NCBI RefSeq assembly: GCF_001685485.1 | Contig: NZ_BDEL01000001.1 | Location: forward strand, 1,485,501-1,549,500 | DNA length: 64,000 nt | Reading direction: 5' to 3' | Origin: Formosa haliotis | GTDB lineage: Bacteria; Bacteroidota; Bacteroidia; Flavobacteriales; Flavobacteriaceae | Shown: positions 19,586-52,486 of the stretch, piece by piece | Layout of the letters: each line of letters starts with the position of its first letter | How positions within the stretch are numbered: the first letter of the stretch is position 1 | Translations under genes and position numbers: made by a program | Notes under the pieces: generated by a model | Told to the model about the DNA's origin: nothing | What the model saw: only the letters and a program-made list of their open reading frames with translations | Database searches by the model: none

Positions 19586-19630
19586 CAAATATATATTATA
19601 GACAAAATGATACCATCCTGTGCTTACCTG
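19586..19630 (-). promoter_or_regulatory. susC promoter with TACAGGA-type operator
   Basis: On the minus strand the operator reads CAGGTAAGCACAGGAT, followed by exactly 21 bp and the -7 box TATATTTG (19593-19586), a full match to the Bacteroidetes TAnnTTTG. No TTG lies at the usual -33 position; the operator takes its place, as expected for a regulator acting directly on RNA polymerase. The start codon is 31 bp beyond the box. The two CAGG units are 10 bp apart, one helical turn. The same module occurs at five other places in the window. Confidence 0.65.
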
Positions 19631-19870
19631 AACTTTCTACTTTTTACTAGAAAAAATAAACATAAACACCTACAAAACAAATGATTAAAAAATTAACAAA
19701 TAATTAATATTTTTTTATTGAATTTAAAACTTTCCTTATTTACTTATCTTACTATTTACAGAACAGCAATTAATTGCTAATTGATTAATAAATTATGATT
19801 TTCACTTAAACAAAAAGCCAACTCACTAAAAACGAAATAAATACCTAAATTATCACAACCATTTAACTCA

Positions 19871-19920
19871 TAGTACAGGATGCTACAGGATACAAGTACA
19901 TTTGAAATAATCTAATTTTA
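19871..19920 (+). promoter_or_regulatory. PL22-operon promoter with tandem TACAGGA-type operator
   Basis: Two ACAGGAT units sit 10 bp apart (19875-19881 and 19885-19891). The second is followed by exactly 21 bp and the near-consensus -7 box TAATTTTA (19913-19920). A perfect TAnnTTTG match (TACATTTG, 19897-19904) also lies here but is only 5 bp past the second unit. Spacing shared with the other modules favours the TAATTTTA box; the sequence alone does not settle this. The first gene starts at 19959. Confidence 0.6.
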
Positions 19921-19958
19921 AAACTGTTTAGAAGTCATTTATCTAGTAAATATTATTT

Positions 19959-21215
19959 ATGAAACTCCAATCCCAGATAGTTTTTAACTTTTTTTTAATA
20001 GCAGTTTTTTTGGGTTGTAAAACAGAACAAAAAAAAGGTGTAGATATTTCAGGTAAACTTCCGTTTTTAGAAACGGGAAGCTTAGACGCAATGCCTGCCA
20101 TTTGGATTGATAAAGTCACAAAACATAGAATAAGAAAGCTTACAAACAGAATCGGTACAAACCGTAGTTTTTACTTCCACAATAATCCTTTCCTAAAATC
20201 TAAAGATGGTAATACCGATTTAATGATTTTTTATGGCGGCAACGGAAATGCTAAACATTTATACACAGTAAACTTAGAAACGCAGGAAACAGAACAAATC
20301 ACCAATAAGCCAGGGAATAAATATGGTGAAATTCTTGGAGTCCAAACAAGAAAAGTATATTACACCATAAACGATAGTATTTTTGCCACGCATATTGATA
20401 CAAAAAAAAATGAATTCATTTATAAATTTCCAGATAGCGTAAGAGGTTCGGTGGTTACCTTAAATGCTTCAGAAAATTTGTTAGCAGGTACAATTATTAG
20501 TAAAAAGGAAGACGACTTACTTCGAAAAACTTTAGACGGTAACGGCAATTTCGATAAAATATATGAAGCCAAATCAGAACGCACTTTAGTAACTATTAAT
20601 ATAGAAACCAAACAAATGCAGCCTATTTATAAAGAACGGGCCTGGCTAAATCATTTACAGTTTTCACCAACCAATCCAGATCTATTAATGTATTGCCACG
20701 AGGGTCCATGGCATAAAGTAGATAGAATTTGGAATATTAACATTAAAACCAAGGAAAAGCAACTCATCCATAAAAGAACGGTAGATCGTGAAATAGCAGG
20801 CCATGAATTTTTTAGTCCTGATGGTAATACCATTTGGTTCGACCTTCAAATTCCAAGAGGAGAAACTTTTTATGTAGCAGGTAAACATTTGGATACAGTT
20901 GATGAAACACAGTACGGTTTAAAAAGAGATGAATGGTCTATACATTATAATATATCACCAGATTTAAAAACATTTGCTGGAGACGGCGGCGATGAAAGTC
21001 AGGTAGCACATGCCAAAGATGGTAAATGGTTATACCACTTCACTCCTACTAAAGATTCATTGGTTTCTGAAAAATTGGTAAACATGGCACATCATGATTA
21101 TAATCTCGAACCTAACGTTCATTTTTCACCTGATGGTAAATGGGTTATTTTTAGAGCTAATTTTGAAAGCAACACACAAATTTATGCCGTTGAATTGAAA
21201 AAATCTAACATTTAA
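19959..21215 (+). CDS. PL22 oligogalacturonide lyase-like lipoprotein
   Basis: A 418-residue beta-propeller lyase of family PL22, which cleaves short uronic-acid oligosaccharides by beta-elimination. The lipoprotein signal (IAVFLGC) places it in the periplasm or outer membrane rather than the cytoplasm, where classical Ogl acts. Family motifs are intact: RSFYFHNNPFL, AWLNHLQFSPTNPDLLMYCH then EGPWHKVDRIW, GHEFFSPDGNTIWFD, EWSIHYNISPDLKTFAGDGG and a histidine-rich NMAHHDYNLEPNVHFSPDG. These His and Gln positions bind the metal and the substrate carboxylate in known PL22 enzymes. It starts the rightward operon and is 2 bp before the GH106 gene. Digalacturonate-type or other diuronate substrates are possible. 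Confidence 0.85.
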   Translation: MKLQSQIVFNFFLIAVFLGCKTEQKKGVDISGKLPFLETGSLDAMPAIWIDKVTKHRIRKLTNRIGTNRSFYFHNNPFLKSKDGNTDLMIFYGGNGNAKHLYTVNLETQETEQITNKPGNKYGEILGVQTRKVYYTINDSIFATHIDTKKNEFIYKFPDSVRGSVVTLNASENLLAGTIISKKEDDLLRKTLDGNGNFDKIYEAKSERTLVTINIETKQMQPIYKERAWLNHLQFSPTNPDLLMYCHEGPWHKVDRIWNINIKTKEKQLIHKRTVDREIAGHEFFSPDGNTIWFDLQIPRGETFYVAGKHLDTVDETQYGLKRDEWSIHYNISPDLKTFAGDGGDESQVAHAKDGKWLYHFTPTKDSLVSEKLVNMAHHDYNLEPNVHFSPDGKWVIFRANFESNTQIYAVELKKSNI

Positions 21216-21217
21216 AC

Positions 21218-23956
21218 ATGATAAAACATACCTATATCATTGTATTTCTAACAGCTATTATTGTTACATCTTGTACTATAAAAGCCCAAAATGAACAGAA
21301 AAACAAAGAAGCTTGGCCAAACATTAAAAACACTTCTAAACCCTGGACCCGTTGGTGGTGGATGGGTAGCGCTGTAGACAAACCCAACATTAAAGACAAT
21401 TTAATCAAACTCCACAAAGTTGGTATAGGAGGCGTAGAAATAGCGCCCATATATGGGGTTAAAGGGGAAGAAGATCATTTTATAGATTATCTATCTCCAA
21501 AATGGATGGAAATGCTAGATTACACCATTAAAATTGCAGATAGTTTAAACATGCAAGTAGACTTAACTTTAGGAACGGGTTGGCCTTATGGTGGGCCACA
21601 AGTTACACCTGAATTTGCGGCTACAAAACTGATATCCCAAAAATATAATGTAAAAAAAGGAGCAATATTTAACAAAACCATTGTTGTTGAAAATCCGAAA
21701 GAAAAACAACCTGCCAAATTACTTTATGTGTTAGCATATGGCGAAAACGGCACCTACCACAATTTGACAAAGCAAGTTGAGAATCAGCAATTAAATTGGA
21801 CGCCAACAGATTCTAATTACGACATATATGCTATTTTTGAAGGTAAAACTGGCCAGAAAGTAAAACGCGCCGCACCGGGTGGTGATGGCTTTACCTTAGA
21901 TCATTATTCCAAAGCCGCTTTAAACGCTTATGTAAAACCATTCGATACGGCTTTGGTGGGCTTTAATGGAAAAATCAGATCCATTTTCAACGATAGTTTC
22001 GAGGTGTACGGTACCAATTTTACACCTAACTTTTTTGAAGCTTTTCAAAACTTACGCGGTTACGACTTAAAGCCCTATATTAATCTGTTATTGAAAGAAG
22101 CAGACGATCCAATAGCAAACCGTATTAAAAGTGATTATCGCGAAACGCTATCGGATTTATTGTTGCACGATTTTGATGAACCTTGGACAAATTGGGCACA
22201 TAAACATAATTTTAAATCCAGATTGCAGGCTCATGGCTCCCCTGGTAATTTAATAGATATGTATGCGGCTGCCGATATTCCAGAATGCGAAACCTTCGGT
22301 TCTATGCCTTACGATATTCCGGGATTCCGCAGAGAACAAGAAGACATCCGCGAAGGTGATGCCGATCCCGTAATGCTTAAATTCTCTTCCTCTGCAGCAC
22401 ATATTGCAGGCAAACCTTTAACCTCGTCTGAAACGTTTACTTGGTTAAGAGATCATTTTAAAGTAGCGCTTTCGCAATGTAAACCAGAGTTAGAAGATTT
22501 ATTTTTAAACGGTATCAACCACGTGTTTTTACACGGTACCACCTACTCGCCAGACCGCGCTGCTTGGCCGGGATGGAAATTCTACGCTTCAACAAACTTC
22601 AATCCGAACCTTACAATTGGCGAAGATGAATCGGAATTATTTAGTTATATCGCCAATTGTCAATCGTTTTTACAATCGGGACAAGCCGATAATGACGTCT
22701 TGCTGTACTGGCCTATTTACGATGTTTGGGACGATTATTTGAAAGGCACCTTATTTTTTCAGTTTAAAATTCACTCTTTGGATGAATGGTTACACGACAC
22801 GCCGTTTTACAAAACCACAACCAACTTAATGCAACAAGGCTATTCCTTGGATTTTATTTCGGATAATTTTATTGCCCAAGCTAAAGTTGAAAATGGCCAT
22901 ATTATCGTACCCGGCGGACAATATAAATCTTTAGTGATTCCGCACTGCGACAACATGCCCTTGAAAACATTGAAGAAATTAATGGAATTACAAAAACAAG
23001 GCGCTTCCATCATTTTTGAAAACAAACCAAAATCGGTGCCTGGTAATTTCAATTTAGAGCAACAAAATAATGAATTGCAAACCGTAGCTAAAACCATTAC
23101 AACAAGTAGTGATGTGTTTTCCGATTTAGCAAAAGCAAATATTCACCCGGAAACTTTAGTAAATACTGGACTTAAATACATAAAACGTGCGGTTGATGGC
23201 GAGACCATTTATTATCTTGTTAATCACACAGCCAAGCCGGTTAACAGCTTTATTCCGATAAACAGCAGCAACAAAGATGTGATTATTTTCGATCCGTTAA
23301 CGCGACATTTCGGAAAGGCTGCAACAAAAAACAGCGACAACAAAACTTTGGTTAAAGTCCAAATTGAACCAGGACAATCGCTATTCTTAAAAACAGAAAC
23401 AAATAGCTCCATTGCCGACTGGCAGTATTTTGAAACCGAAAAAGAAACCTATCCTATTTCAGGAACTTGGAAACTCGAATTTATAAAAGGTGGTCCAAAA
23501 CTACCGCAAGCCACCGAAATTTTAGATTTAGTTTCCTGGACGACTTTAGATCCGGAATACGAAGCATTTTCAGGAACTGCAAAATACAGTATCAACTTTA
23601 AAAATCCTGATACTGCCATTAAACATTGGCAACTTCATTTAGGCGATGTTAGAGAAAGTGCTAAAGTCTGGCTTAATGGCAAACTTGTAGGAACGGCTTG
23701 GTCGGTGCCTTATCAATTAAAATTGGATAATTTACAAGCTGGCGACAATCAATTAACCATAGAAGTAACCAACCTCGCGGCCAATCGCATTAGAGCCAAA
23801 GAAATGCGTGGCGAGGAATGGAAAAATTTCTACGAAATCAATATGGTCGATAAAGACTATCAAAAATTCGATGCGACTAAATGGAAGCCAATGCCTTCTG
23901 GTTTATTGAATCCTATAACATTAACACCCTTAAAACTTATAACACATGAAAAATAA
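21218..23956 (+). CDS. GH106 alpha-L-rhamnosidase (lipoprotein)
   Basis: Releases terminal alpha-L-rhamnose. The 912-residue lipoprotein (lipobox IIVTSC) opens its catalytic domain with the GH106 hallmark PWTRWWWMGSAV and continues with GVGGVEIAPIYG-like and DLTLGTGWPYGGPQVTPE stretches, HNFKSRLQAHGSPGNLIDMY, TSSETFTWLRDHF, and DLFLNGINHVFLHGTTYSPD, which are the conserved barrel segments containing the acidic catalytic residues. C-terminal jelly-roll domains (about 780-912, including VWLNGKLVGTAWSVPYQL) complete the fold. Length fits the family. It is 2 bp after PL22 and overlaps the next gene by 11 bp, so translation is coupled. Together with RhaM and the rhamnose operon it supplies and uses rhamnose. 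Confidence 0.92.
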   Translation: MIKHTYIIVFLTAIIVTSCTIKAQNEQKNKEAWPNIKNTSKPWTRWWWMGSAVDKPNIKDNLIKLHKVGIGGVEIAPIYGVKGEEDHFIDYLSPKWMEMLDYTIKIADSLNMQVDLTLGTGWPYGGPQVTPEFAATKLISQKYNVKKGAIFNKTIVVENPKEKQPAKLLYVLAYGENGTYHNLTKQVENQQLNWTPTDSNYDIYAIFEGKTGQKVKRAAPGGDGFTLDHYSKAALNAYVKPFDTALVGFNGKIRSIFNDSFEVYGTNFTPNFFEAFQNLRGYDLKPYINLLLKEADDPIANRIKSDYRETLSDLLLHDFDEPWTNWAHKHNFKSRLQAHGSPGNLIDMYAAADIPECETFGSMPYDIPGFRREQEDIREGDADPVMLKFSSSAAHIAGKPLTSSETFTWLRDHFKVALSQCKPELEDLFLNGINHVFLHGTTYSPDRAAWPGWKFYASTNFNPNLTIGEDESELFSYIANCQSFLQSGQADNDVLLYWPIYDVWDDYLKGTLFFQFKIHSLDEWLHDTPFYKTTTNLMQQGYSLDFISDNFIAQAKVENGHIIVPGGQYKSLVIPHCDNMPLKTLKKLMELQKQGASIIFENKPKSVPGNFNLEQQNNELQTVAKTITTSSDVFSDLAKANIHPETLVNTGLKYIKRAVDGETIYYLVNHTAKPVNSFIPINSSNKDVIIFDPLTRHFGKAATKNSDNKTLVKVQIEPGQSLFLKTETNSSIADWQYFETEKETYPISGTWKLEFIKGGPKLPQATEILDLVSWTTLDPEYEAFSGTAKYSINFKNPDTAIKHWQLHLGDVRESAKVWLNGKLVGTAWSVPYQLKLDNLQAGDNQLTIEVTNLAANRIRAKEMRGEEWKNFYEINMVDKDYQKFDATKWKPMPSGLLNPITLTPLKLITHEK

Positions 23957-25076
23957 AATCCTTTGTATTTGCCTAACTCTGGCAAGCTTTTCGTCGGTAT
24001 TTGCTCAAGACTTACCCGACCGAAAAGCCGTATTAGAAACCATGATTTTAACCAACGATTACTTTATGAAAAAGTGGCCCGATGTTGGTAAAACTATCGT
24101 CACTAATAAAGAACGCCCAAGTAACATCTGGACGCGCGGCGTGTATTACGAAGGTTTAATGGCCTTGTACAATATTTGGCCAAAAGAAGAATACTATCAA
24201 TACGCATATGACTGGTCCGAATTTCATAAATGGAATTTTAGATACGGAGCAGCAAACCGCAATGCAGACGATTATTGTGCGGCACAAACCTATATCGATT
24301 TATACAATTTAACGCCTGATCCTAAAATGCTAAAAAGCACCAGAGCCTGTATGAACATGTTGTTAAATACACCTCAAAATGACGATTGGTGGTGGATTGA
24401 CGCTTTACAAATGGGCATGCCTGTTTTTGCGAAAATGGGCGTGTTGGAAAACGATAATCGCTATTACGAAAAAATGTACGACATGTACATGTATACCCGC
24501 GATAAACATGGCGAAAAAGGCCTTTACAACCCAAAAGATGGTTTATGGTGGCGCGATGCCGATTTCGATCCGCCTTACACCGAACCAAATGGTGAAGATT
24601 CGTATTGGAGTCGCGGTAATGGTTGGGTAATCGCAGCTTTGGCGCGCGTATTAAACATTATGCCAGAAGATGCGCCACATCGCGACCAGTACATTAAAGA
24701 TTTTAAAGCAATGGCCGAAGCCTTAGTGCCAATTCAGCGAAAAGATGGTTTTTGGAATGTTAGCTTACACGACCCAAAACATTTTGGCGGTAAAGAAACT
24801 TCGGGAACAGCACTGTTCGTCTATGCGATGGCTTATGGTGTAAACACAGGCATTTTAGATCGCGACACTTACTTGCCTGTACTTTTAAAAGGTTGGAATG
24901 CGATGGTTAAGGAAGCGGTTCATAAAAACGGATTCTTAGGTTGGTTACAATCTACTGGTAAAGAACCAAAAGATGGTCAGCCGTTGTCTTACGACAAAGT
25001 TCCAGATTTTGAAGATTACGGTTTAGGTTGCTTCTTATTAGCCGGTACCGAAGTTTATAGATTGGAAGAAAAATAA
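23946..25076 (+). CDS. GH105 unsaturated rhamnogalacturonyl/glucuronyl hydrolase
   Basis: A 376-residue (alpha/alpha)6-barrel hydrolase that removes the 4,5-unsaturated uronic acid produced by lyases. It has a signal peptide (SSVFAQ). The catalytic aspartate is in WWWIDALQMGMPVFAKMG, and the family motif DSYWSRGNGWVIAALARV as well as the C-terminal SGTALFVYAMAYG are intact. GH105 enzymes act on rhamnogalacturonan, ulvan and arabinogalactan fragments. Its ATG lies 11 bp inside the end of the GH106 gene. A long-stem hairpin follows at 25122-25175, so it may end a first transcript. With the GH88 at 2178 the locus carries two unsaturated-uronate hydrolases of different families. Confidence 0.9.
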   Translation: MKNKILCICLTLASFSSVFAQDLPDRKAVLETMILTNDYFMKKWPDVGKTIVTNKERPSNIWTRGVYYEGLMALYNIWPKEEYYQYAYDWSEFHKWNFRYGAANRNADDYCAAQTYIDLYNLTPDPKMLKSTRACMNMLLNTPQNDDWWWIDALQMGMPVFAKMGVLENDNRYYEKMYDMYMYTRDKHGEKGLYNPKDGLWWRDADFDPPYTEPNGEDSYWSRGNGWVIAALARVLNIMPEDAPHRDQYIKDFKAMAEALVPIQRKDGFWNVSLHDPKHFGGKETSGTALFVYAMAYGVNTGILDRDTYLPVLLKGWNAMVKEAVHKNGFLGWLQSTGKEPKDGQPLSYDKVPDFEDYGLGCFLLAGTEVYRLEEK

Positions 25077-25121
25077 TTATACCTAATTAGACAGCTTGCC
25101 TTTTGTAACTTTTAAATAACT

Positions 25122-25179
25122 AACGCGGAGTCGAGACAGCAAATTAATTTTTTAACACATTCACGACTCCGCGTTTTTT
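25122..25179 (+). terminator. Long-loop hairpin terminator after GH105
   Basis: A perfect 12-bp inverted repeat, AACGCGGAGTCG (25122-25133) and its complement (25164-25175), is followed on the plus strand by TTTT. The GC-rich stem is striking in this AT-rich DNA. The loop is 30 bases, longer than usual for an intrinsic terminator. It would separate PL22-GH106-GH105 from the GH43 group; no operator of the shared type is seen between it and the GH43 start at 25235. Confidence 0.6.
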
Positions 25180-25234
25180 CATTATTAATCCATCAGTATT
25201 CCAATAATTGCCAACACATTAAGAATTCATCTAA

Positions 25235-27169
25235 ATGAAACCAACAACCAAACTAACAGCATTACATCTTATTTTAATCTGCCTTTCCCTCCAAATGTAC
25301 GGTCAAAAAAGACAAGGCATAGAAGAGAAAGATTATACCGCTTATTTATTCACCTATTTTACAGGAAATAAACAATCGCAGGAACAAATTCACTTTGCTG
25401 TAAGTCAGGATGGTTATCATTTTAAGGCACTAAATAATAATCAACCGGTTATCAATTCGGAAACCATTAGCTCCAGTGGCGGTGTACGAGATCCACATAT
25501 TTTAAGATCCGAAGATGGCAAAACATTTTATATGGTTGCTACCGATATGGTGACTTCTAAAGGTTGGGATTCTAACAGGGCTTTTGTTATGCTCAAATCG
25601 ACCGATTTAATTCATTGGACACATTCGGTCATTCACATCCCGAAAAAATACGGCGGCCATGAGGATTTAAAACGTGTTTGGGCACCACAAACCGTGTTCG
25701 ATCACGAAGCAAAAAAATACCTGATATATTGGTCTATGAAGCACGGCGATGCTAACGACATTATTTATTACGCTTACACCAACGACGATTTTACCGATAT
25801 TATTGGCGAGCCTAAACCTCTTTTCATTCCTAAATCGGGAGATTTCTGTATCGATGGCGATATCATTTTTAAAGATGATATTTATTATATGTATTACAAA
25901 ACCGGAACGCTGGACAATAACGGTTTACGAATGGCTAAAACACGTTCGCTAACCAGTAATAACTGGATAGAATTCAACGATTTTGTTGAAAGCACTAAAG
26001 AGGATGTGGAAGGCTCTGGTTTATTCAAACTGAATAATTCTGAAGACTATATTTTAATGTACGATGTGTACCGTAAACACCAATATCAATTTACAAGAAC
26101 TACCGATTTTCAAAACTTTGAAATCGTCGATCAAGATATCCAAATGGATTTTCAGCCCAGACATGGCACAGTAATTTCCATCACAAACAACGAATTGAAA
26201 GCGTTAACTAAAACTTACGGCATACCAGAAGGCCTAGCGCCTATTCCTAACAACCCGGTTTTGCAAGGCTATTACGCCGATCCGGATATTATGTATTCCG
26301 AAAAAAACAAAAAATTCTATATGTACCCTACTTCCGATGGTTTTAACGAGTGGTCGGGCACTTATTTTGAAGCGTTTTCATCTGACAACCTAGTGGATTG
26401 GAACAATGAGGGCGTGATTTTGGATTTGGAAAAAGATGTATCTTGGACTAACACCAACGCGTGGGCGCCTTGTATCATTGAAAAGAAAACTAAATCCGGT
26501 TACAAGTACTACTATTATTTTACGGCGGGAAAATTTATTGGTGTAGCCACTGCCGACGAACCGGAAGGGCCTTTTAAAGATTCTGGGAAACGCATAATCG
26601 ACAAAAAACCAGAAGGAACCAATCGCGGTATCGAAATAGATCCCGAAGTATTCCATGACCCTGTAAGCAATAAGGATTACCTCTATTACGGCAACGGCTA
26701 TATGGCGGTAGCCGAATTGAAACCAAACATGACTGAAATTGATGAATCCAGCATCAAATTATTAAATCCGTCCCATTACCGCGAAGGCACGACAGTATTT
26801 TACCGTAACGGCATTTACTATTTTTTATGGTCCGAAAACGACACCAGACATGTGAATTATCGCATTCGTTATGCGACTTCCAACTCGCCAACAGGTCCAT
26901 TACATATTCCTGAAGATAATATCATTTTGGCAAAAGATCCAAGTCAGGGCATTTATGCCACGGGACATAATTCCGTGATTCAAGTTCCGGGGAAAGACGC
27001 ATGGTACATTGTGTATCATCGGTTTTCGTATCCCAACGGCATCAACATAGGGCGTGCTGCTGGTTACCATCGCGAAGTGTGTATAGACACCTTGAAATTT
27101 AATGCCGATGGCAGTATTAAACCAACGAAACCAACCCATACCGGCATTAAACCTATTCAATTAAATTGA
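25235..27169 (+). CDS. Double-domain GH43 glycoside hydrolase
   Basis: A 644-residue exported protein with two GH43 five-bladed propellers in tandem, expected to release arabinose or xylose. Domain 1 (about 35-330) starts YLFTYFTGNKQSQEQIHFAV and has the base motif GVRDPHIL and KRVWAPQTVFD. Domain 2 (about 345-640) has the base motif GYYADPDIMY, TNAWAPCIIEKK, RGIEIDPEVFHDP and HREGTTVFYRNGIYYFLW with the acid glutamate. Both halves keep the aspartate of the RDP/ADP motif, so both may be active. Domain 1 resembles the separate GH43 at 31265. The signal peptide ends near MYGQ. It opens the second group of the rightward arm, 8 bp before the next GH43 gene. Confidence 0.88.
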   Translation: MKPTTKLTALHLILICLSLQMYGQKRQGIEEKDYTAYLFTYFTGNKQSQEQIHFAVSQDGYHFKALNNNQPVINSETISSSGGVRDPHILRSEDGKTFYMVATDMVTSKGWDSNRAFVMLKSTDLIHWTHSVIHIPKKYGGHEDLKRVWAPQTVFDHEAKKYLIYWSMKHGDANDIIYYAYTNDDFTDIIGEPKPLFIPKSGDFCIDGDIIFKDDIYYMYYKTGTLDNNGLRMAKTRSLTSNNWIEFNDFVESTKEDVEGSGLFKLNNSEDYILMYDVYRKHQYQFTRTTDFQNFEIVDQDIQMDFQPRHGTVISITNNELKALTKTYGIPEGLAPIPNNPVLQGYYADPDIMYSEKNKKFYMYPTSDGFNEWSGTYFEAFSSDNLVDWNNEGVILDLEKDVSWTNTNAWAPCIIEKKTKSGYKYYYYFTAGKFIGVATADEPEGPFKDSGKRIIDKKPEGTNRGIEIDPEVFHDPVSNKDYLYYGNGYMAVAELKPNMTEIDESSIKLLNPSHYREGTTVFYRNGIYYFLWSENDTRHVNYRIRYATSNSPTGPLHIPEDNIILAKDPSQGIYATGHNSVIQVPGKDAWYIVYHRFSYPNGINIGRAAGYHREVCIDTLKFNADGSIKPTKPTHTGIKPIQLN

Positions 27170-27176
27170 TAACAAT

Positions 27177-28187: not shown

Positions 28188-28224
28188 TCGAAATATAAAC
28201 AAAATAAGGAATAACACAAAACCT

Positions 28225-43562: not shown

Positions 43563-45002
43563 TTAATAATACTTTGCATAAACCACTCGGGTGTGCAAAT
43601 ATTCTTCCATACCATGTTTTCCATCTGCACCACCGACACCTGACTTTTTCCATCCGGCGTGGAAACCTTGTATGGCTTCAAAATGTTCTCTGTTTACATA
43701 GGTTTCTCCAAATTGCAAACTATTGGTAGCATGCATGATGTTATTATAATTTTCTGAGAATATAGATGATGTTAAACCATATTGACAATCGTTAGACAAC
43801 GCTATGGCCTCATCTAATGTGTTAAATTTCATTACTGGTAATACAGGACCAAATACTTCTTCTTGTACCACCTGCATGTCCTGTGTACAATTGGTTAAAA
43901 GTGTAGGCTCATAGAAATACCCTTTACTAAATTTTTCCGGACGCTTTCCTCCAACAAGAACTTCGGCACCCTCTTTTTTAGCAAATTCGACCATTTCAGA
44001 AATTTTATCGACTTGAGATTTAGAAACTAAACTACTCATATCGGCATTCACTCCGGTTAAAGCATCTTCAACCGTAACTTCACTCATCTTTTTAGTCAGT
44101 TTTTCAACAAATTCATCGTAGATACTGTCTTCTACATAAACGCGTTCTGCACAATTACATACTTGTCCGCTAAAAATCACTTTTGAAGACACTACAGCAT
44201 TAACTGCTAATTCTAAATTGGCATCTGCACAAACAATCGCAGGTGCCTTCCCTCCTAATTCTAAAGAGACTTTTGTAATATTTTCGGCTGCAGCAGTTAT
44301 AATTTGTTGTCCAGCACCAACACTTCCTGTTAAACTAATTATCCCCGTAATTGGACTTTTTGAAAGCGCGTTACCAACTGTTCTACCAGATCCACACACA
44401 AAATTTAATACACCTTTTGGCAAATCTATTTTTTGAATAAAATCGGCAAATTCCATAATCGTATTTGGTGCTTCAGAACTTGGTTTTATAACACAGGTGT
44501 TACCGGTAATTAACGAAGCTGCAACTTTTCTTGCCATGACGAAAAAAGGAAAGTTCCAAGGACAAATACCAACAGCAACACCAATTGGCACTTTATGAAG
44601 GTAAATGTGTTCTTTGGCACGATCACTCTGGATAATTTCCCCCTCAATACGTCTTGCCCATCCCGCATTATAATCGAAATAATCTGCTGTGACGTCAATT
44701 TCTACTTGTGCTAAACCGATAACTTTTGCTTGTTCTTTAGACAAGGTTTCTGCCAAAAACACTCTGTTTTCTCTAATAACATCTGCCATTTTATGTAAAA
44801 AAGCAGCTCTTTGAATGGCTGGTAATGCTTCCCATGCTGGTTGTGCTGCTTGCGCTGCTTCTAAAGCATTGTTAGCGTCATCAACTGTTCCTGTAGAAAT
44901 GGTGCTTAAAATTTCTTCTGTACAGGGATTTAAAATTTCAATGACATCTGTAGCTTTTGAGTCTACAAATTGTCCGTTTATATATTGCTTATAATGTTTC
45001 AT
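43563..45002 (-). CDS. aldA: Lactaldehyde dehydrogenase AldA
   Basis: Oxidises L-lactaldehyde, made by rhamnulose-1-phosphate cleavage, to L-lactate with NAD. The 479-residue protein has the same length as E. coli AldA and is very similar throughout: WARRIEGEIIQSDRAKEHIY, PWNFPFFVMARKVAASLITG then NTCVIKPS, LELGGKAPAIV with the catalytic glutamate, FSGQVCNCAERVYVEDSIYD with the catalytic cysteine, and GFHAGWKKSGVGGADGKHGM near the end. It is cytoplasmic. It lies between the lactate dehydrogenase gene (32 bp upstream) and the permease. The RhaW half of RhaEW is also a lactaldehyde dehydrogenase, so the operon may encode this step twice. Confidence 0.94.
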   Translation of the reverse strand: MKHYKQYINGQFVDSKATDVIEILNPCTEEILSTISTGTVDDANNALEAAQAAQPAWEALPAIQRAAFLHKMADVIRENRVFLAETLSKEQAKVIGLAQVEIDVTADYFDYNAGWARRIEGEIIQSDRAKEHIYLHKVPIGVAVGICPWNFPFFVMARKVAASLITGNTCVIKPSSEAPNTIMEFADFIQKIDLPKGVLNFVCGSGRTVGNALSKSPITGIISLTGSVGAGQQIITAAAENITKVSLELGGKAPAIVCADANLELAVNAVVSSKVIFSGQVCNCAERVYVEDSIYDEFVEKLTKKMSEVTVEDALTGVNADMSSLVSKSQVDKISEMVEFAKKEGAEVLVGGKRPEKFSKGYFYEPTLLTNCTQDMQVVQEEVFGPVLPVMKFNTLDEAIALSNDCQYGLTSSIFSENYNNIMHATNSLQFGETYVNREHFEAIQGFHAGWKKSGVGGADGKHGMEEYLHTRVVYAKYY

Positions 45003-45034
45003 TTTAAAAAATTATTATGCTATTATAATTTGTA

Positions 45035-46183
45035 TTATTTAATTAAGTGATCTGGAAAATCACTTGTTGTTGCACAACAAAGCTGATCCATGACTTGTTG
45101 TAATTCTGTTTTCAATAAGGAAATGGTATGATTTCCACCTTGTTTTCCAAGTGCAGAAACACCGTACATAAAGGAGCGTCCCATGAAAGTGAATTTAGCC
45201 CCACTTGCCATGGCACGTGCCACATCGGGACCGGAACGAATCCCACTGTCCATCATCACCTCTATCTGGTCACCATACTTTTCGGCAATGGTGCTTAACG
45301 GTTTTATCGTGGACTGTCCAGCGTCTAATTGACGTCCGCCGTGATTGGACACAATTATTCCATCAAGACCTAACCTAATCGCTTCTTCTGTATCAAATTC
45401 GGAAGCCACACCTTTAAGCACTAATTTACCTTTCCACATATCGCGAATAGGTTTTATTTTTTCTTCATTTAATCGACCACTAAAAGTATCGTCCATAAAC
45501 TTACCCAATTGTGTTAAGTCTAGTCCTTTAGGCATATAGGGCTTTAAAACTTCAAAGCTTGGGATACCATGTTTTAAGGTTTGCAAACTCCAATCTGGTC
45601 GTCCAAATGCTTGTAAAATGTTAGTGAGATTCATTTTTGGAGGCATTGCCAAGCCATTCCTAATATCTCTTGGTCTAAACCCGAATGTTGGGACATCGCA
45701 CAGAATAACTAAAACTGGACACTCTGCCGCTTCTGCACGTTTAATAATATCGTCTCTCAATCGATTTTCGGTTGGATGATACAATTGAAACCATGCTTTT
45801 CCTTGGGTTAATTCGCTTGCGCGCTCGATACTCGTCGTGGTTACTGTGCTGAGAATAAAAGGAATATTATGCTCAAAAGCGGCTTTAGCCAATATCTCTG
45901 GCGAATTGGGCCACATTAATCCTTGTAAACCTACCGGTGCAATGCCAAAAGGTGCGTCGTATTCGATCCCAAATAATTTTGTTTTTAAAGATGCTCCTTG
46001 ATGTGCCCTTAAATAATTTGGCTTGAGTTGTACATCTCTTAATTCTGATGTATTTCGTTTTAAATTTACATCTTCATTACATCCCCCATCTAAATATTCA
46101 AAAGCAAATTTTGGTATTTTTTTCTGAGCTTTAGCTCTTAAATCATCTATTGAAGGATAGCGATTATCAAACTTTATGGCCAT
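45035..46183 (-). CDS. lldD: FMN-dependent alpha-hydroxy-acid (L-lactate) dehydrogenase
   Basis: Oxidises L-lactate to pyruvate, completing the conversion of the rhamnose C4-C6 half. The 382-residue protein starts with YPSIDDLRAKAQKKIPKFAF then EYLDGGCNED, the standard opening of the LldD family, and carries the FMN and catalytic motifs FGIAPVGLQGLMWP, LSTVTTTSIE, WFQLYHP, GIIVSNHGGRQLD (catalytic His and substrate Arg) and VMMDSGIRSGPDVARAMASG then AKFTFMGR. Length is normal. It follows the aldolase-like gene by 10 bp and precedes aldA by 32 bp. The substrate lactate is an inference from the operon; other small 2-hydroxy acids are possible for the family. Confidence 0.9.
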   Translation of the reverse strand: MAIKFDNRYPSIDDLRAKAQKKIPKFAFEYLDGGCNEDVNLKRNTSELRDVQLKPNYLRAHQGASLKTKLFGIEYDAPFGIAPVGLQGLMWPNSPEILAKAAFEHNIPFILSTVTTTSIERASELTQGKAWFQLYHPTENRLRDDIIKRAEAAECPVLVILCDVPTFGFRPRDIRNGLAMPPKMNLTNILQAFGRPDWSLQTLKHGIPSFEVLKPYMPKGLDLTQLGKFMDDTFSGRLNEEKIKPIRDMWKGKLVLKGVASEFDTEEAIRLGLDGIIVSNHGGRQLDAGQSTIKPLSTIAEKYGDQIEVMMDSGIRSGPDVARAMASGAKFTFMGRSFMYGVSALGKQGGNHTISLLKTELQQVMDQLCCATTSDFPDHLIK

Positions 46184-46193
46184 AATTTTCTGT

Positions 46194-47483
46194 TTATGAT
46201 AAAAACTTTTTTCGTAAATCTTCTACCTGTTCATCATTGATAGGCACCATGTCTCCTAAGGAATTCCCTAGAACTATTGATTTTGCACTAAATTCTGCGA
46301 CTTCTAAATAATCAAAAGTTTGTAGTAATTTATCGCCTGTAATAATTACTGAATCATTTTCAATAATTAATGCTGTGGCACAATTATCTATGATTTCAGA
46401 ATTATTATTTTCTCTAAAATGATTACCGTATTTCACCATATTTATATCTTGTAAAAAGATCCAACTTTCTGGAATAGTACGCACGTTTAAATAACTTTTT
46501 GTAACTCCAAATGCCATTAAATACGGAGATTGTGTCATTATAATGGAGTTAACCTTTGGGTTACGGTTGTAAATCTCTTGATGTATCCAAGCGGCTCTAC
46601 TTGGTTTTTTACCAGCCTCGCGCTTGCCGTCTTTTATTTGAACAATATCGTCTAAATCTATATCCCAACGATTAATTCCTGTTGGCGTTATAAGAAAATC
46701 ATTGTCGTTCCAACGCATAGAAACCGTCCCGTAAGAGCTTATCATCAAGCCTTGCTGACAGGAACGCTGTACGATTTCACATATTTCAAGTCGTTTTTCA
46801 ACTTCATCTGCAGGATACTCGGTAGTCTCCATTTCTGGCAAAACTCCTGTTGCCTGTGCTTCAAATTTTGCTATCTGTGCATCCGACAAATAATGAGGTG
46901 TCCCTATTTGCGACCCGTACAAAATAGTGCGTGCACAAAACTCTAAAGCTTCAAAACGTTCAAAAGCATCGGTTAAATCACTTCCGCCTAAAACAGTTCC
47001 ATGATTTTCCATGATAATAGCTTTGAATCCTTTTTTGAATTCTTCTGCAATCACATCGCCTAAATCTTCACTCCCTGGCAATCTATACTCTGCATAGCCT
47101 ATAGGCCCACAAATATGTTTGGCTTGAGAAATGATGTTCGTATTTGGAATTTGACGTACAATACTAAATGACACTAAGGCCGGTGGATGCGCATGAATAA
47201 CCGATTTTATATCTGGACGCGCTTCATAAATCGCTTTATGGAAAGGAAATTCTGAAGAGGGTTTATGTTTACCAATAATAGTTCCATCCTTTTTTACACA
47301 AATAATATCTGAAGCTCTTAAAGAGCCTTTATCAATCGCAGAAGGAGTTACCCAAATATCGCCGTTATCGTCTATTATTGAAATATTACCACCAGAAGTT
47401 GTGGTCATTCCACGTTTATAAATTCTACTAATTATTGTAGTAATTTGGTCTCTTGGATGAATTAATTTATTTTTTCTTTTCAT
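46194..47483 (-). CDS. Tandem class II aldolase/adducin protein with a degenerate second half
   Basis: A 429-residue cytoplasmic protein made of two class II aldolase domains. The first (about 5-205) keeps the zinc and catalytic residues: Glu78 in SSEFPFHKAIYE, His97 and His99 in VIHAHPPALV, and His161 in MENHGTVLGG. The second (about 225-425) keeps the fold (SSYGTVSMRWNDNDFLITPT, PKVNSIIMTQSPYLMAFG, ALIIENDSVIITG) but the E, HxH and NHG positions read A, MTQ and NDS. So only the first half can be an active aldolase or decarboxylase. Because RhaEW already contains the rhamnulose-phosphate aldolase, its role is unclear; it may act on a related sugar phosphate such as fuculose phosphate. It lies between rhaB (34 bp) and lldD (10 bp). 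Confidence 0.85.
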   Translation of the reverse strand: MKRKNKLIHPRDQITTIISRIYKRGMTTTSGGNISIIDDNGDIWVTPSAIDKGSLRASDIICVKKDGTIIGKHKPSSEFPFHKAIYEARPDIKSVIHAHPPALVSFSIVRQIPNTNIISQAKHICGPIGYAEYRLPGSEDLGDVIAEEFKKGFKAIIMENHGTVLGGSDLTDAFERFEALEFCARTILYGSQIGTPHYLSDAQIAKFEAQATGVLPEMETTEYPADEVEKRLEICEIVQRSCQQGLMISSYGTVSMRWNDNDFLITPTGINRWDIDLDDIVQIKDGKREAGKKPSRAAWIHQEIYNRNPKVNSIIMTQSPYLMAFGVTKSYLNVRTIPESWIFLQDINMVKYGNHFRENNNSEIIDNCATALIIENDSVIITGDKLLQTFDYLEVAEFSAKSIVLGNSLGDMVPINDEQVEDLRKKFLS

Positions 47484-47517
47484 TTTTTTAAGTTGAATAT
47501 TAAAAATATCCTAAGGT

Positions 47518-48894
47518 TTAGCTTACTATAAAAGGTACATGCTTTTTAAGGGCGTAATTCTTTTTTAGAAATTTAGAATTTAATTTGGCATCAGAAATAG
47601 CAATCGCTGCTCCCAATGCAGAACCTAAAGAGGAATCGGTAGTACGTAATTTCATATGTCTAAATTCATGCGCTAATAATTTTATATACACATCGTTATC
47701 ACTAAAACCACCATCGACATATAATCTTGAAATCGCATCGGTACCAATGGCTTTTTGTATGCTTTGTATTTGAAGTAAAACCAGCTCGGTCATTAATTGA
47801 TGATACGCCTGCTCGTAATTTTCAAAAGCCATATTGGTTTTTTCAGCCATAGTTTCATCATCAATACTTTCCCATTTAAAACAAGGTTTAAAGTTGTCTG
47901 TAATTTTTGAATACAACTCGTAATCAAACTTAACATGGCGGTGATAATCATCGGCAACCCCAAAAGCTTCATCTAATTTCTTTACTTGTAATTTGTATTC
48001 ATTGCCTAAAAATAAACGTGTTGCTTTTACTGGCTTCCCATTAATTCGCATGTAATTAATAGCTTCGTTTCCTTCAACTTCGGTCGCAATGGGCTGCTCT
48101 GTAAACGGATTAAAAACTATGCTCCACGTCCCTGTAGAGACTAATACAAATTTCTTTTTTATGCTTCTTACATAAGGCAGAAGTGCTGCAGAACTATCAT
48201 GAATACCAACACCTATCTTAATTCGTGTACCATTATAATTCATGTTAACACTAGTCTCTGTAGACACTATTGGTGGTAAAATCGTATGAAATCCTTCGTT
48301 ATAAACCCAACTGTGATAATCCATTTTTACATAATCCCAAAGTCCAGTATGGCAGCCAATACTCGTGTATTCACTTAAAGGTATACCAGTAAAAACATAA
48401 CTAAGATATTGCGGTAAATGCAAGCTGTATTTAATTTTTTTATAGACCTCTGGTTGCTCTTTTTTTAACCAATACAACTGTAGACCTGAGTTTAACATAC
48501 TCAAATCTGAGCACCCTGTGGTTTTTAGAAAAGCCTCTCTTGGCCCGTAGGTATCGAAAAAAGAAGTTACTATATGTTCGGGTAACGACTTTGTATAATT
48601 GTAAAGCGGCGTTAAAGGATTCCCATTTTCATCGATATGAACCAAACTAGCACCATAGGTAGAAAAGTTTATAGCTTTTACATCAAATTCCTCCGCTTTA
48701 AGAATACGATTAAACACGTCTTTTAACCACGCTTGTAAGGCCTGAAGGTTTTCTGTAGGATGCCCGTCTTCATCTTCTATTTCATCAAATGAAATGTACT
48801 CTTTATGTACTTCCTTAAAATCCTTATCGAATAAGAAAAATTTCTTGTTGGTCTTGCCTATATCAAATACGGCTGTTACTTTTTTCTTCATCAA
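47518..48894 (-). CDS. rhaB: L-rhamnulokinase
   Basis: Phosphorylates L-rhamnulose to L-rhamnulose-1-phosphate. The 458-residue FGGY-family kinase opens with AVFDIGKTNKKFFLFD (phosphate-binding loop 1), has NFSTYGASLVHIDENGNPL, KKFVLVSTGTWSIVFNPFTE, and the second ATP site YVDGGFSDNDVYIKLLAHEF then SALGAAIAIS. The N-terminal GKTNKK form is typical of the Bacteroidetes carbohydrate kinases of this operon. It lies 12 bp after rhaI and 34 bp before the tandem aldolase gene, so cotranscription is clear. Specificity for rhamnulose is inferred from neighbours rhaI and rhaEW. Confidence 0.9.
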   Translation of the reverse strand: MMKKKVTAVFDIGKTNKKFFLFDKDFKEVHKEYISFDEIEDEDGHPTENLQALQAWLKDVFNRILKAEEFDVKAINFSTYGASLVHIDENGNPLTPLYNYTKSLPEHIVTSFFDTYGPREAFLKTTGCSDLSMLNSGLQLYWLKKEQPEVYKKIKYSLHLPQYLSYVFTGIPLSEYTSIGCHTGLWDYVKMDYHSWVYNEGFHTILPPIVSTETSVNMNYNGTRIKIGVGIHDSSAALLPYVRSIKKKFVLVSTGTWSIVFNPFTEQPIATEVEGNEAINYMRINGKPVKATRLFLGNEYKLQVKKLDEAFGVADDYHRHVKFDYELYSKITDNFKPCFKWESIDDETMAEKTNMAFENYEQAYHQLMTELVLLQIQSIQKAIGTDAISRLYVDGGFSDNDVYIKLLAHEFRHMKLRTTDSSLGSALGAAIAISDAKLNSKFLKKNYALKKHVPFIVS

Positions 48895-48906
48895 TCTAAG
48901 CTTTAA

Positions 48907-50187
48907 TTATAACCCGGAAGCAATACTGTGTTTTCCACGTTCTTGAATTAAAGCCTCTCTAATTTTTAATTCTCGGTACACCCCTAACGGATCTAAAGCG
49001 CCACCAGATTGTAGTCTTGCTTGTGCTAATAACGGACGTACATCGGTGCGGTAAGCCTTTTGTAAAATTTCTTGACATGCCACCACATCATGAGCCGATT
49101 GAGCTTGCTTTAATTGTGCTTGATCTACTAATAAAGCTTTTGCATAAGCTTCTTGAATAGCTTCTAAAGATTGAATTAAATCCTCTAACGGATCTTTTAT
49201 ATTATGGCTCGCATCAATCATCCAAGACAATTCTGGATTTTGCGGATTGTTTTGCATACCGTAAACCAATTCATTAAAAATTAAAAATAGAGCGTATGGT
49301 TTTACACTTCCCACAGTGACATCATCGTCGCCATATTTACTATCGTTAAAATGAAATCCACCTAATTTACCTTTCAGCATTAGAGTTGATACAATCTGTT
49401 CGATGTTTGTATTTGGTAAATGATGCCCTAAATCTACTAACGTATACGCTTTATCACCACAAGCATTGGCCAACATAAACGAGGTTCCCCAATCTTGAAT
49501 AACGGTGCTGTAGAAATTAGGTTCGTAAGGTTTGTATTCTATAAACAGTTTCCAGTCGTCTGGAAGCGTTTTGTATATCGATTTTAAGCTGCTTTCAGTA
49601 TTTGAAAGTGCCGTTTGAAAATTATTTTGTCCAGGAAAATTAGAACCATCGGCTAACCAAACGGTTAAACTTTTAGACCCCAATTGTTCACCAATTTTTA
49701 TAACCTCTTGGTTGTGCGCAATGGCTTGCTCTCGAACTGCTTGACTGGTATTGCTTAAAGATCCGTATTTATAACTTTCTTTAGCATCCTTTTGATCTTG
49801 AAAGGTATTAGAATTTACAGCATCGAACTTTAAATTTAAACTATTTGCTTGATCTTTAATCGCGCTATAATCCTCTGGTATGTCCCAAGGAATATGTAAC
49901 GACACTGCTCCTGCTGTTTGCGTTAAACTATGTAAAAGTCCAACATCGTCTAATTTCTGAGTTAAATTTGAAGGCTCGCCATAATAAGAAAAACGCCCAA
50001 AACGCGTACCTCCAGCACCTAAAGCCCAACTTGGAATAGCCACCTGAAATTCAGCCAGACTATTAATGATGCTTTTGGTATTGTGGTTGTTTTTTTCTAA
50101 TGTATTTGCTAAGAAATCAAATTGACTCTTATGATTTTCACTTCCTTTTTGGTTTAATTCTGATATTTGAGATTTCTGTAATTTCAT
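48907..50187 (-). CDS. rhaI: L-rhamnose isomerase, RhaI type
   Basis: Converts L-rhamnose to L-rhamnulose. The 426-residue protein belongs to the RhaI group, unrelated in detail to E. coli RhaA but with the same xylose-isomerase-like barrel. Visible motifs are IPSWALGAGGTRFGRFSYYG near residue 50, VSLHIPWDIPEDY, LTVWLADGSNFPGQ, WKLFIEYKPYEPNFY (metal-binding Glu), TLVDLGHHLPNTN, GGFHFNDSKYGDDDVTVGS then VKPY (His, Asp metal ligands) and WMIDASHNIKDPLED. All expected acidic and histidine ligands are present. It follows rhaEW by 124 bp, in which a stem-loop (50213-50238) lies, and precedes rhaB by 12 bp. Confidence 0.93.
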   Translation of the reverse strand: MKLQKSQISELNQKGSENHKSQFDFLANTLEKNNHNTKSIINSLAEFQVAIPSWALGAGGTRFGRFSYYGEPSNLTQKLDDVGLLHSLTQTAGAVSLHIPWDIPEDYSAIKDQANSLNLKFDAVNSNTFQDQKDAKESYKYGSLSNTSQAVREQAIAHNQEVIKIGEQLGSKSLTVWLADGSNFPGQNNFQTALSNTESSLKSIYKTLPDDWKLFIEYKPYEPNFYSTVIQDWGTSFMLANACGDKAYTLVDLGHHLPNTNIEQIVSTLMLKGKLGGFHFNDSKYGDDDVTVGSVKPYALFLIFNELVYGMQNNPQNPELSWMIDASHNIKDPLEDLIQSLEAIQEAYAKALLVDQAQLKQAQSAHDVVACQEILQKAYRTDVRPLLAQARLQSGGALDPLGVYRELKIREALIQERGKHSIASGL

Positions 50188-50212
50188 AATTCCTGATTTT
50201 TTTTAAATAAGA

Positions 50213-50238
50213 CCTTTCAAGGGTTTCCCAATGAAAGG
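50213..50238 (-). other. Stem-loop between rhaEW and rhaI
   Basis: CCTTTCA (50213-50219) pairs with TGAAAGG (50232-50238), with an inner GGG/CCC pair set and a TTT loop. The minus strand continues TCTTATTT, a poor T tract, so it is a possible attenuator or processing site rather than a full terminator. The stem and its flank (GAAAGGC, TC, AACAAAC, CTAA) resemble the hairpin at 33481-33530, which suggests a common element. Confidence 0.4.
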
Positions 50239-50311
50239 CCTCTCTAACAAACTAACAATTTAACATACTTAATTAGCCATTTACTACTAATTAAAGACAT
50301 CAATTTTAAAA

Positions 50312-52417
50312 CTAACGCACAAATGCATTAGCCATTCCACCGTCTACATTAATAATATTTCCGGTCGATTTATCTAAAACTCCTACTAGTGCAAATACGC
50401 CGTTGGCAATATCGTTTGGAGTAATAATTTCGTTTAATAAATTTCTTTTAGCATAAAATGCAGGTAATTCTTCAACAGTTATTCCATTGGCTTTTGCACG
50501 TCCTTCTGCCCAAGCTCCTTCCCAAATTTTACTACCTACTATAACGCCATCTGGGTTTACGGTGTTTACTCTAATTTTATCTTTAGCTAACTCGGCTGCT
50601 AATAAACGCACCATGTGTTGTTGAGCTGCTTTTGCAGTACCGTAAGCCACATTGTTTGGCCCTGCGACCAATCCGTTTTTACTGGCTATAGAAATATAAT
50701 CGCCACCTAAATTTTGTTTTCTCATGATTTCAGTTGAAAACTTCGCTAGGTTAAATTGTCCTTTTACTAAAATGTTTTGTAAAATATCCCAATCTTTATC
50801 TGTTGTTTCTTCTAAAGGCTTAGAGATCGCTAATCCTGCGCTGTGCACTACGATATCTACGCCTCCAAATTCAATACATGCTTTTTTGTAAGCCTTATTA
50901 ATTGAATCTGTATTGGTAACATCGCAAACTGCCGTTGCAGCAACGTCGCGTTTGTAGGTTGCCAAAGCTTCTGCAAGACTGTCTTCATTAATATCTGTAA
51001 GTACCACGTTCGCACCTTCAGCGGCTAGCTTATCGGCAATTGCTTTTCCAATTCCTCCACCAGCTCCAGTAACAAAGGCTACTTTGCGAGATAACGGTTG
51101 TTCCTTAGGCATACGCTGTAATTTGGCTTCTTCTAACAACCAATATTCTATATCAAAAGCTTCTTGCCTTGGTAATGAGGTATACGATGAAATCGCTTCT
51201 GCCCCACGCATCACGTTAATGGCATTAATATAAAATTCGCTTGCCACACGTGTAGTTTGTTTGTTTTTGGCAAAACTGAACATCCCTACACCCGGATAAA
51301 TAATAATTACCGGATTGGCATCACGAATGGCTGGACTGTTGTCCTTTTTACACGTGTTGTAGTAATCTGCGTATTCCTGTCGGTAAGTTTCAAAAGCAGG
51401 TTCTAATTTTTTAAGAATAGCTTCTGAATCTGATAAGTCTTCATCTTTATCTAAAGTCAACACTAATGGTTGAATTTTTGTTCTTAAAAAATGATCTGGG
51501 CACGAAGTTCCCATAGGTGCTAAACGCTCTAAATCATTACTATTGATATATTCTAAAACCACATCGGTATCAGAAAAATGACCAATCATTCTGTTTTCCG
51601 AAGAACATAATCCTCTTAATAAAGGCATTAATTGTGCGGCTTTTTCTAAACGCTCCGCTTTAGGTAGAGACTCTATTTTTTGTCCGCCGAAAACAGATCC
51701 TTTTTCAGCAATCTTTTTTTCGATATACTCTGAAGCCATTTCAATAACTTCCAAACTATTCATATAACAGTCGTACGAAGTATCTCCCCAAGTAAATAAT
51801 CCGTGAGATCCTAATACAATGCCACGAATGCCAGGGTTATCGGCTAAACATTTTTCTAATTGTAAACCCAAATCGAAACCTGGACGTTGCCAAGGCACCC
51901 ACCCCATAGTATCTCCCCAAATTTCTTTGGTAACCTTTTCGCTATCCTCTGCTGCCGCAACGGCTATTAAAGCATCTGGATGTAAGTGGTCGATATGTGC
52001 AAAGGGTAATAAACCGTGTAAAGGGGTGTCTATAGATGGTGCTTTACTGTCTAAATCGTAAATACAATGGTTAAAAAGTCCAACCATACGATCTTCATCT
52101 TCTAATCCGCCATAAACATTTTTTAAATCACGTAAGCGATCTGTATACAAACCTGCGATTCCTGCACGTGTTAAGGTTCCGATATCTCCTCCAGATCCTT
52201 TTACCCACATTACTTCTACATTATCTCCTGTTAAAGGGTCTTTTTCTATGGTTTTACAACTCGTATTTCCACCGCCATAATTAGTAATCCTTAAATCTGC
52301 TCCTAAAATATTTGACCGGTATAAAAATAAGGCGACTTGATCGTCTCCTAATTCTGATGCTTTTTCGTTATCCCAAAGGTAATCGACGTAATTAAATTGT
52401 TTAACAAGATTATCCAT
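50312..52417 (-). CDS. rhaEW: Bifunctional rhamnulose-1-phosphate aldolase/lactaldehyde dehydrogenase RhaEW
   Basis: Splits L-rhamnulose-1-phosphate to dihydroxyacetone phosphate and L-lactaldehyde, then oxidises the lactaldehyde. The 701-residue fusion has an N-terminal class II aldolase domain (about 20-420: LRITNYGGGNTSCKT, VMWVKGSGGDIG, LLPFAHIDHLHPDALIAVAA with the zinc histidines, VLGSHGLFTWGD) and a C-terminal short-chain dehydrogenase (about 430-700: VAFVTGAGGGIGKAIADKLA, VHSAGLA, SIASKNGLVAGPNNVAYGTA then KAA with the YxxxK). Both active sites are intact. It is first in the rhamnose operon and is preceded by the operator at 52445-52486. Confidence 0.93.
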   Translation of the reverse strand: MDNLVKQFNYVDYLWDNEKASELGDDQVALFLYRSNILGADLRITNYGGGNTSCKTIEKDPLTGDNVEVMWVKGSGGDIGTLTRAGIAGLYTDRLRDLKNVYGGLEDEDRMVGLFNHCIYDLDSKAPSIDTPLHGLLPFAHIDHLHPDALIAVAAAEDSEKVTKEIWGDTMGWVPWQRPGFDLGLQLEKCLADNPGIRGIVLGSHGLFTWGDTSYDCYMNSLEVIEMASEYIEKKIAEKGSVFGGQKIESLPKAERLEKAAQLMPLLRGLCSSENRMIGHFSDTDVVLEYINSNDLERLAPMGTSCPDHFLRTKIQPLVLTLDKDEDLSDSEAILKKLEPAFETYRQEYADYYNTCKKDNSPAIRDANPVIIIYPGVGMFSFAKNKQTTRVASEFYINAINVMRGAEAISSYTSLPRQEAFDIEYWLLEEAKLQRMPKEQPLSRKVAFVTGAGGGIGKAIADKLAAEGANVVLTDINEDSLAEALATYKRDVAATAVCDVTNTDSINKAYKKACIEFGGVDIVVHSAGLAISKPLEETTDKDWDILQNILVKGQFNLAKFSTEIMRKQNLGGDYISIASKNGLVAGPNNVAYGTAKAAQQHMVRLLAAELAKDKIRVNTVNPDGVIVGSKIWEGAWAEGRAKANGITVEELPAFYAKRNLLNEIITPNDIANGVFALVGVLDKSTGNIINVDGGMANAFVR

Positions 52418-52444
52418 ATTCTTATTTTAAAATTAATAGTGTTG

Positions 52445-52486
52445 TAAATCTAAAACGATAGAAAAATTTATCCGTCCTGTACTATA
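52445..52486 (-). promoter_or_regulatory. Rhamnose operon promoter with TACAGGA-type operator
   Basis: On the minus strand the operator reads GGTATAGTACAGGAC, then exactly 21 bp, then TAGATTTA (52452-52445), one base from TAnnTTTG. The rhaEW start at 52417 is 27 bp beyond. Only one clear CAGG unit is present here. The rest of the 52418-52640 gap has no gene and no clear terminator for the upstream integrase gene. Confidence 0.62.

Follow-up and report, generated by a model that had tools for sequence, protein, structure and literature searches.

A 64,000-nucleotide stretch of the Formosa haliotis genome raises the question of what links its genes for outer-membrane uptake, pectin lyases and cytoplasmic rhamnose catabolism, and which regulator governs them. 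This stretch, hereafter the window, covers positions 1485501-1549500 of C1, the single contig of the 4.3-Mb genome, and it was analyzed together with the 45.5 kb to its left (109.5 kb in all, hereafter the own region). Hybrid two-component systems (HTCS) dominate what is known from Bacteroides, and to our knowledge rather little has been established on how marine flavobacteria control their polysaccharide loci. One short promoter module appears to link the three groups of genes, and it points to a likely owner. We propose that the module serves as operator and promoter for a single regulon, which covers the breakdown of rhamnogalacturonan/pectin and the catabolism of L-rhamnose, and that it belongs to a GntR/LacI-type protein encoded in the window (REG, 33978-35024, plus strand), which would act as a class II activator. 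We put the probability of this reading at about 0.8. Positions are those of the window unless they are called genome positions, and loci of relatives carry numbers with the letter L.

A tandem repeat at a fixed distance from the promoter box

The preliminary description claimed six copies of a promoter module, each with a TACAGGA-type site and a TAnnTTTG-like 8-base box at a fixed spacing. Direct reading of the sequence agreed with this at all six sites, where exactly 21 bp separate ACAGGAT (or a variant) from the box. Five of the sites lie on the minus strand and were scored with a weight matrix from which the box was excluded: those of the rhamnose operon (52472-52489, score 26.7; -7 box TAGATTTA at 52445-52452), the PL1 gene (41637-41654, 24.2; TAAATTCA at 41610-41617), uxuBA (38234-38251, 6.9; TAAATTTG at 38207-38214), an orphan promoter in the gap beside the REG gene (33856-33873, 23.1; TATCTTTC at 33829-33836) and susCD (19613-19630, 19.1; TATATTTG at 19586-19593). 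The sixth site, on the plus strand, precedes the PL22-GH106-GH105-GH43-GH2-rhaM operon and has the full 10-bp tandem repeat (19876-19893, 22.9; TAATTTTA at 19913-19920). The orphan site is divergent from the REG gene and lies 114 bp upstream of it. All six sites of the proposed gene set are thus present, but two need qualification. No intact gene lies behind the gap site, and the motif of the uxu site is weak. From the uxu site it is about 85 bp to the apparent start of uxuB (near 38157), and its box at 21 bp is a strict one; a score of at least 6.5 combined with a strict box has an expectation of just 0.05 per 109.5 kb.

The proposal of a single regulon at this locus is also supported, and its extent is larger than the window. 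Five extra sites with scores of at least 13 lie to the left (genome positions 1456385, minus; 1456525, plus; 1470087, minus; 1470261, plus; 1476366, plus), in three cases with the box 21 bp away. A core search with WGTACAGGATNG, one mismatch allowed, gave 81 matches against 40 and likewise found further matches just left of the window.

The consensus of the motif is CAGKAYAG-TA-CAGGAYAS, a tandem repeat with a period of 10. Self-correlation of the matrix was 0.86 at a shift of 10 and 0.65 at a period of 5. We also considered a palindrome with a GTA-NNN-TAC core, as in the GntR consensus, and rejected it, given that the best inverted alignment reached only 0.50.

To what extent could such a module arise by chance, or be a generic promoter feature of AT-rich DNA? 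The loose two-block consensus that had been suggested for a genome scan speaks for this explanation, since with up to two mismatches it gave 628 genome matches against 434 in the reversed control; it was dropped as unspecific. The matrix built on the repeat, however, does discriminate. It was trained on columns -13 to +8 around the A of ACAGGAT, with the box left out, and at a score of at least 15 it gave 116 matches on the real sequence of the own region and 40 relative loci and 3 on the reversed sequence. In the own region alone there were 10 such matches, among which the PL22 site counts a second time through its upstream unit, and the box stood at 21 bp in 8 of the 10; the corresponding values for Markov sequences were 0.33 and 0.

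Spacings from 5 to 49 were then compared, with a passing box defined as TA followed by at least three of the four bases TTT[GA]. Among the 113 intergenic sites with scores of at least 13 (own region and 40 loci), 87 had the box at 21 bp, and the other 44 spacings had 0 to 9 each. In a further 33 loci the box stood at 21 bp in 49 of the 64 sites, with 0 to 6 at each other spacing. The first count started from 136 matrix matches scoring at least 12, from which 20 inside open reading frames (ORFs) of at least 150 aa and 3 scoring 12-13 were excluded; a site at L075 with its box at 21 bp is missing from it, presumably because of the ORF filter. Several matches are doubles of one site shifted by 5 or 10 bp. 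The loci of the second count were picked by the motif itself or by the position of the regulator, so that it is a hold-out of loci and not of genomes (G227 and G245, for example, are shared). The columns between motif and box are almost without information. The 21-bp lock in both sets of loci, the Markov sequences and the co-occurrence with REG described below already refute a chance origin, which we regard as negligible.

The position of the box gives the position of the motif. The start-site map of Flavobacterium psychrophilum places the sigma-A box at -12 to -5 (PMC9723704), and therefore the motif covers about -49 to -32. As the preliminary description had noted for the places it checked, the promoters lack a TTG at -33: at spacers of 17-21 it occurs in 1 of 87 site promoters and in 7 of 49 control promoters. 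A motif at -49 to -32 combined with a missing -33 element is the layout expected of a class II activator site.

The probable owner of the sites

REG is a RhaR-like protein of 348 aa with a GntR winged helix-turn-helix (HTH) and a LacI/ribose-binding-type sensor. Pfam scored GntR (PF00392) at 34.9 bits, above the cut-off of 27, and Peripla_BP_3 at 25.4 bits, just below its cut-off of 26.5. In the AlphaFold2 (AF2) model, which has a pLDDT (predicted local distance difference test) value of 90, residues 85-346 form a LacI fold. Matches to MocR-type families of NCBIfam covered the HTH alone and were far below cut-off.

A scan of the genome contigs with REG gave two loci, and the ortholog survey was therefore carried out over 299 genomes of the family. 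REG had matches at E<=1e-20 in 131 of them. A 16-base form of the motif, one mismatch allowed, was looked for in each genome. It was present in 57 of the 60 that have a close ortholog (best E below 1e-98), in 10 of 71 with distant relatives only and in 25 of 168 with no relative; the contrast of 57/60 with 35/239 has a Fisher p of 6e-33. The reversed pattern occurred in 16 of the 60 and in 51 of the 239, so the 35 genomes with the motif and no close ortholog can be taken as background. The genome rows of this survey are complete, and its classes (60, 71 and 168) and the reversed-control list were compiled by hand.

The sites are also found beside the regulator gene. A divergent site lies at most 500 bp upstream of it in 16 of 20 ortholog loci; in the others, the site is 79 bp downstream (L081), about 520 bp away and filtered out (L075), or at least 1.2 kb away (L068 and L084). 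Four loci (L068, L071, L077 and L079) have two tandem REG genes, 61-66% and 72-74% identical to the REG of the window, with a site before the pair. In addition, a REG paralog with 30% identity (L094:11434-12411) has its own gene behind a REG-type site, which suggests a regulator cascade.

The preliminary description had judged a GntR protein a poorer fit to direct repeats than an AraC-type or response-regulator owner. A regulator encoded elsewhere (AraC, HTCS or response regulator) could own the sites and merely travel with the pectin and rhamnose genes. Direct repeats are common for AraC-type rhamnose regulators and HTCS regulators (PMC3870299, PMC3878776), and the genome has 21 matches to the AraC HTH (PF12833). 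However, those repeats have a periodicity of about 21 bp and not 10, and none of the AraC matches is near the locus, the closest, at genome position 1314888, being separated from the leftmost site by about 140 kb, so that we rejected an AraC owner. REG is the only transcription factor that Pfam found in 37 of the 43 window ORFs of at least 100 aa and in 10 of the 20 ORFs of at least 150 aa to the left; for other families, response regulators included, no genome-wide search was made. Across the 299 genomes the motif goes with the GntR/LacI gene, and it stands beside this gene in most ortholog loci. In several loci, moreover, the motif changes together with the DNA-binding domain of this protein, as described next, and we consider an owner encoded elsewhere quite improbable. 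The owner is most likely the GntR/LacI-type protein at 33978-35024.

In the loci L106, L107 and L112, regulators 41-44% identical to REG lie beside rhaEW, and ACAGAAC/T replaces ACAGGAT (CAGAAY-type repeats) with the box still 21 bp away. These are three of the four class II loci in the family, so that a diverged regulator at the rhamnose operon goes with a diverged motif; L167, from another family, is alike. With a stricter script, applied to the stretches upstream of rhaEW in 16 loci, an 8-of-9 tandem repeat was found in L112 only. A third clade, 37-43% identical to REG, has the tandem repeat CCTACYAG-NN-CCTACYAG at most 200 bp before its own gene in 14 of 15 cases (up to two mismatches), against 0 of 32 for other regulator genes; among random windows from the same loci, 4 of 940 matched at 0-1 mismatches and may be the same sites. 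Before the genes of this clade, the CCTACYAG repeat is seen in either orientation, and box-like sequences lie at distances of 6 to 23 bp from it, an arrangement that looks autorepressive. The clade comprises GntR/LacI proteins of about 330 aa from Flavivirga, Algibacter, Polaribacter and others (loci L108, L111 and L113-L125).

How, then, would REG act? We propose that two head-to-tail winged-HTH units would read the 10-bp tandem repeat, and that REG would contact RNA polymerase and stand in for the missing -33 element as a class II activator, with its LacI-like sensor most likely binding L-rhamnose or a close product. Rigid spacing together with the missing -33 element favors activation, which had been suggested before and gains support from the counts above. 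We infer the sign of control, the binding, the head-to-tail geometry and the ligand from these sequence patterns.

The same owner might instead be a repressor: bound at -49 to -32, REG would block RNA polymerase until a sugar releases it, as with AraR. The CCTACYAG clade, which looks like an autorepressor, lends some weight to this. However, repression would require no fixed orientation and no single spacing, yet 87 of the 113 sites have the box at exactly 21 bp, and the site promoters have no -33 element that would let them work unaided. We therefore consider repression unlikely and prefer activation by REG.

Several observations weigh against the proposed regulon and its activator. AraR, the characterized protein with the same domain plan, represses from palindromes (PMC4218819). 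Three of the 60 ortholog genomes have no match to the 16-base pattern. A passing box at 21 bp is missing in 26 of the 113 sites and in 15 of the 64, about 10 of these 15 being 5-bp-shifted doubles of good sites, and two of the sites left of the window (genome positions 1456385 and 1470087) also lack it. As to the diverged repeats, L109, the fourth class II locus of the family, has no CAGAAY-type repeat; in seven loci of other distant relatives (L146-L152; five of them 46-51% identical to REG among the matches listed) the pattern never occurs with a box; and among 12 rhaEW-linked loci in other families the repeat has a passing box in L167 only, L170 having the repeat with a failing box.

Comparison with known regulators

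GntR subfamilies are divided by their C-terminal domain (PMC4494728), and REG carries both domains of the AraR-type subfamily, a GntR winged HTH and a LacI-type sensor, as in AraR of Bacillus subtilis. The sequence similarity of the two proteins is weak (DNA-binding domain E 3.5e-5). AraR represses from palindromes (PMC4218819), whereas the REG sites are tandem direct repeats at one fixed promoter position; a palindromic operator, which is known for AraR and does not define the subfamily, is not what the REG motif resembles (0.86 direct against 0.50 inverted). Within other GntR subfamilies, NanR, FarR and NagQ are known as exceptions that read direct repeats (PMC4494728, PMC5320631). The MocR-type regulators (GabR, TauR and PdxR) also have a GntR winged HTH, often bind direct repeats and are often divergent from the targets that they activate (PMC5320631), but their C-terminal domain is aminotransferase-like and that of REG has a LacI fold.

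In working style XylR of Escherichia coli is the closest to REG, being an activator with a LacI-type sensor that uses direct repeats as we propose for REG, whereas its DNA-binding domain is of the AraC type and that of REG is of the GntR type (PMC12125979). The RhaR groups serve the same pathway and belong to the AraC, DeoR and LacI families, the DeoR type having direct repeats of 10-11 bp, and REG is of another protein family; the paper that names these families does not contain the word 'gntr' (PMC3870299). FucR and ManR of B. thetaiotaomicron are named as GntR regulators (PMC3878776). Among the matches listed by our literature search, none describes the motif or a GntR-type rhamnose activator; subscription papers were mostly outside this search, so that absence is not proven. 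AusR of Zobellia galactanivorans is reportedly a GntR-family regulator of the flavobacterial alginate system, titled a repressor.

REG is a candidate activator of the GntR fold that would combine a LacI sensor with tandem-repeat sites, and it would show an activator replacing the -33 element in a Bacteroidota promoter. Tandem repeats with a 10-bp period may be a habit of the whole protein group, the rigid promoter lock being seen in the rhamnose branch alone. We lean slightly towards the broader idea that a large Bacteroidota GntR/LacI clade reads 10-bp head-to-tail repeats and not palindromes, with the rhamnose branch having turned into rigid class II activators that replace the -33 element of the unusual promoters of this phylum, a sister branch having remained an orientation-free autorepressor, and a recognition code that would be readable from paired changes of the repeat (CAGGAY, CAGAAY, CCTACYAG) and the recognition helix. 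Three sister clades with three different repeats would make this code directly testable, and the matrix finds further targets in dozens of genera.

Genes of the proposed regulon and possible signs of decay

Within the window, the sites precede a SusD/SusC pair (14553-19555, minus; Pfam, NCBIfam), an operon of PL22, GH106, GH88/105, GH43, GH43, GH2, GH43 and rhaM (19959-32624, plus; Pfam), and a secreted PL1-like pectate lyase (38597-41581, minus), called from a Pectate_lyase_4 match of 23.5 bits, just below the cut-off of 24, and a secretion tail. The rhamnose operon (43563-52417, minus; Pfam/NCBIfam) consists of rhaEW (50312-52417), rhaI (48907-50187), an FGGY kinase (47518-48894), a class II aldolase (46194-47483), an FMN-dependent dehydrogenase (45035-46183) and an aldehyde dehydrogenase (43563-45002). 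At its end lies an NCS1-like transporter (41995-43428, minus; its NCBIfam ncs1 match is far below cut-off); in L071 and L094, relatives 90% identical to this transporter have their own REG sites. Left of the window, the 45.5 kb encodes rhamnogalacturonan-I functions: PL11 lyase, GDSL esterases, GH28, GH2 and GH43.

The usual first gene behind the divergent site is rhaEW, which accounts for 20 matches, one of them a shifted double, spread over 19 of 41 loci. Judged by its similarity to the rhaEW gene of PMC3870299, it encodes a bifunctional rhamnulose-phosphate aldolase/lactaldehyde dehydrogenase. In a phylum sample of 395 genomes, it lay within the fetched 16 kb in 12 of 18 REG relatives at E<=1e-90. 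Other first genes encode SusC (15 loci), sulfatases, GH78-type and GH106 rhamnosidases, GH3, RhaT and fructose-1,6-bisphosphatase. The rhamnose operon, rhaT and the two kinds of rhamnosidase among these genes suggest L-rhamnose or a close product as the ligand. A regulator linked to rhamnose genes and a site before the rhamnose operon, by which a rhamnose regulon is recognized, are both present here. Fructose-1,6-bisphosphatase comes first at L068:12772 (Pfam) and L084:8253 (clustering), which would tie gluconeogenesis to rhamnose use.

The leftward promoter in the gap has a real site and a box at 21 bp, as described earlier, but it looks like a relic. The 1.35-kb gap to the left of REG has no stop-free stretch of more than 54 codons. 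At 33466-33547 (minus), it retains a sequence matching the rhaEW-rhaI junction of L066, a locus from the same genus (L066:6602-6687; 78% over 86 columns, E 5e-12); the match to the window's own junction near 50230 is weaker (E 0.002). In L066 the regulator and rhaEW directly flank the site; the rhaEW gene of the window begins about 18 kb away and has a separate site. These observations are most simply explained by the loss of an older rhamnose operon beside REG, with its promoter left in place. A tyrosine recombinase with an arm-binding domain (52641-53930) adjoins the promoter of the rhamnose operon, which is itself away from its usual place by the regulator.

The uxu genes, uxuA (36171-37331) and the C-terminal part of uxuB (37344-37868), occupy 36171-37868 on the minus strand (Pfam). 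uxuB is frameshifted (37344-38157), its N-terminal part, which starts near 38157, being in another frame; this may be real decay or a sequencing error. At the left edge, a GH2 gene (1142-2155) and neighboring ORFs, one of them GH105-like by position and size alone, seem to be split (genome positions 1482525-1486606). Several genes of the locus may therefore be decaying, or the assembly may contain indel errors.

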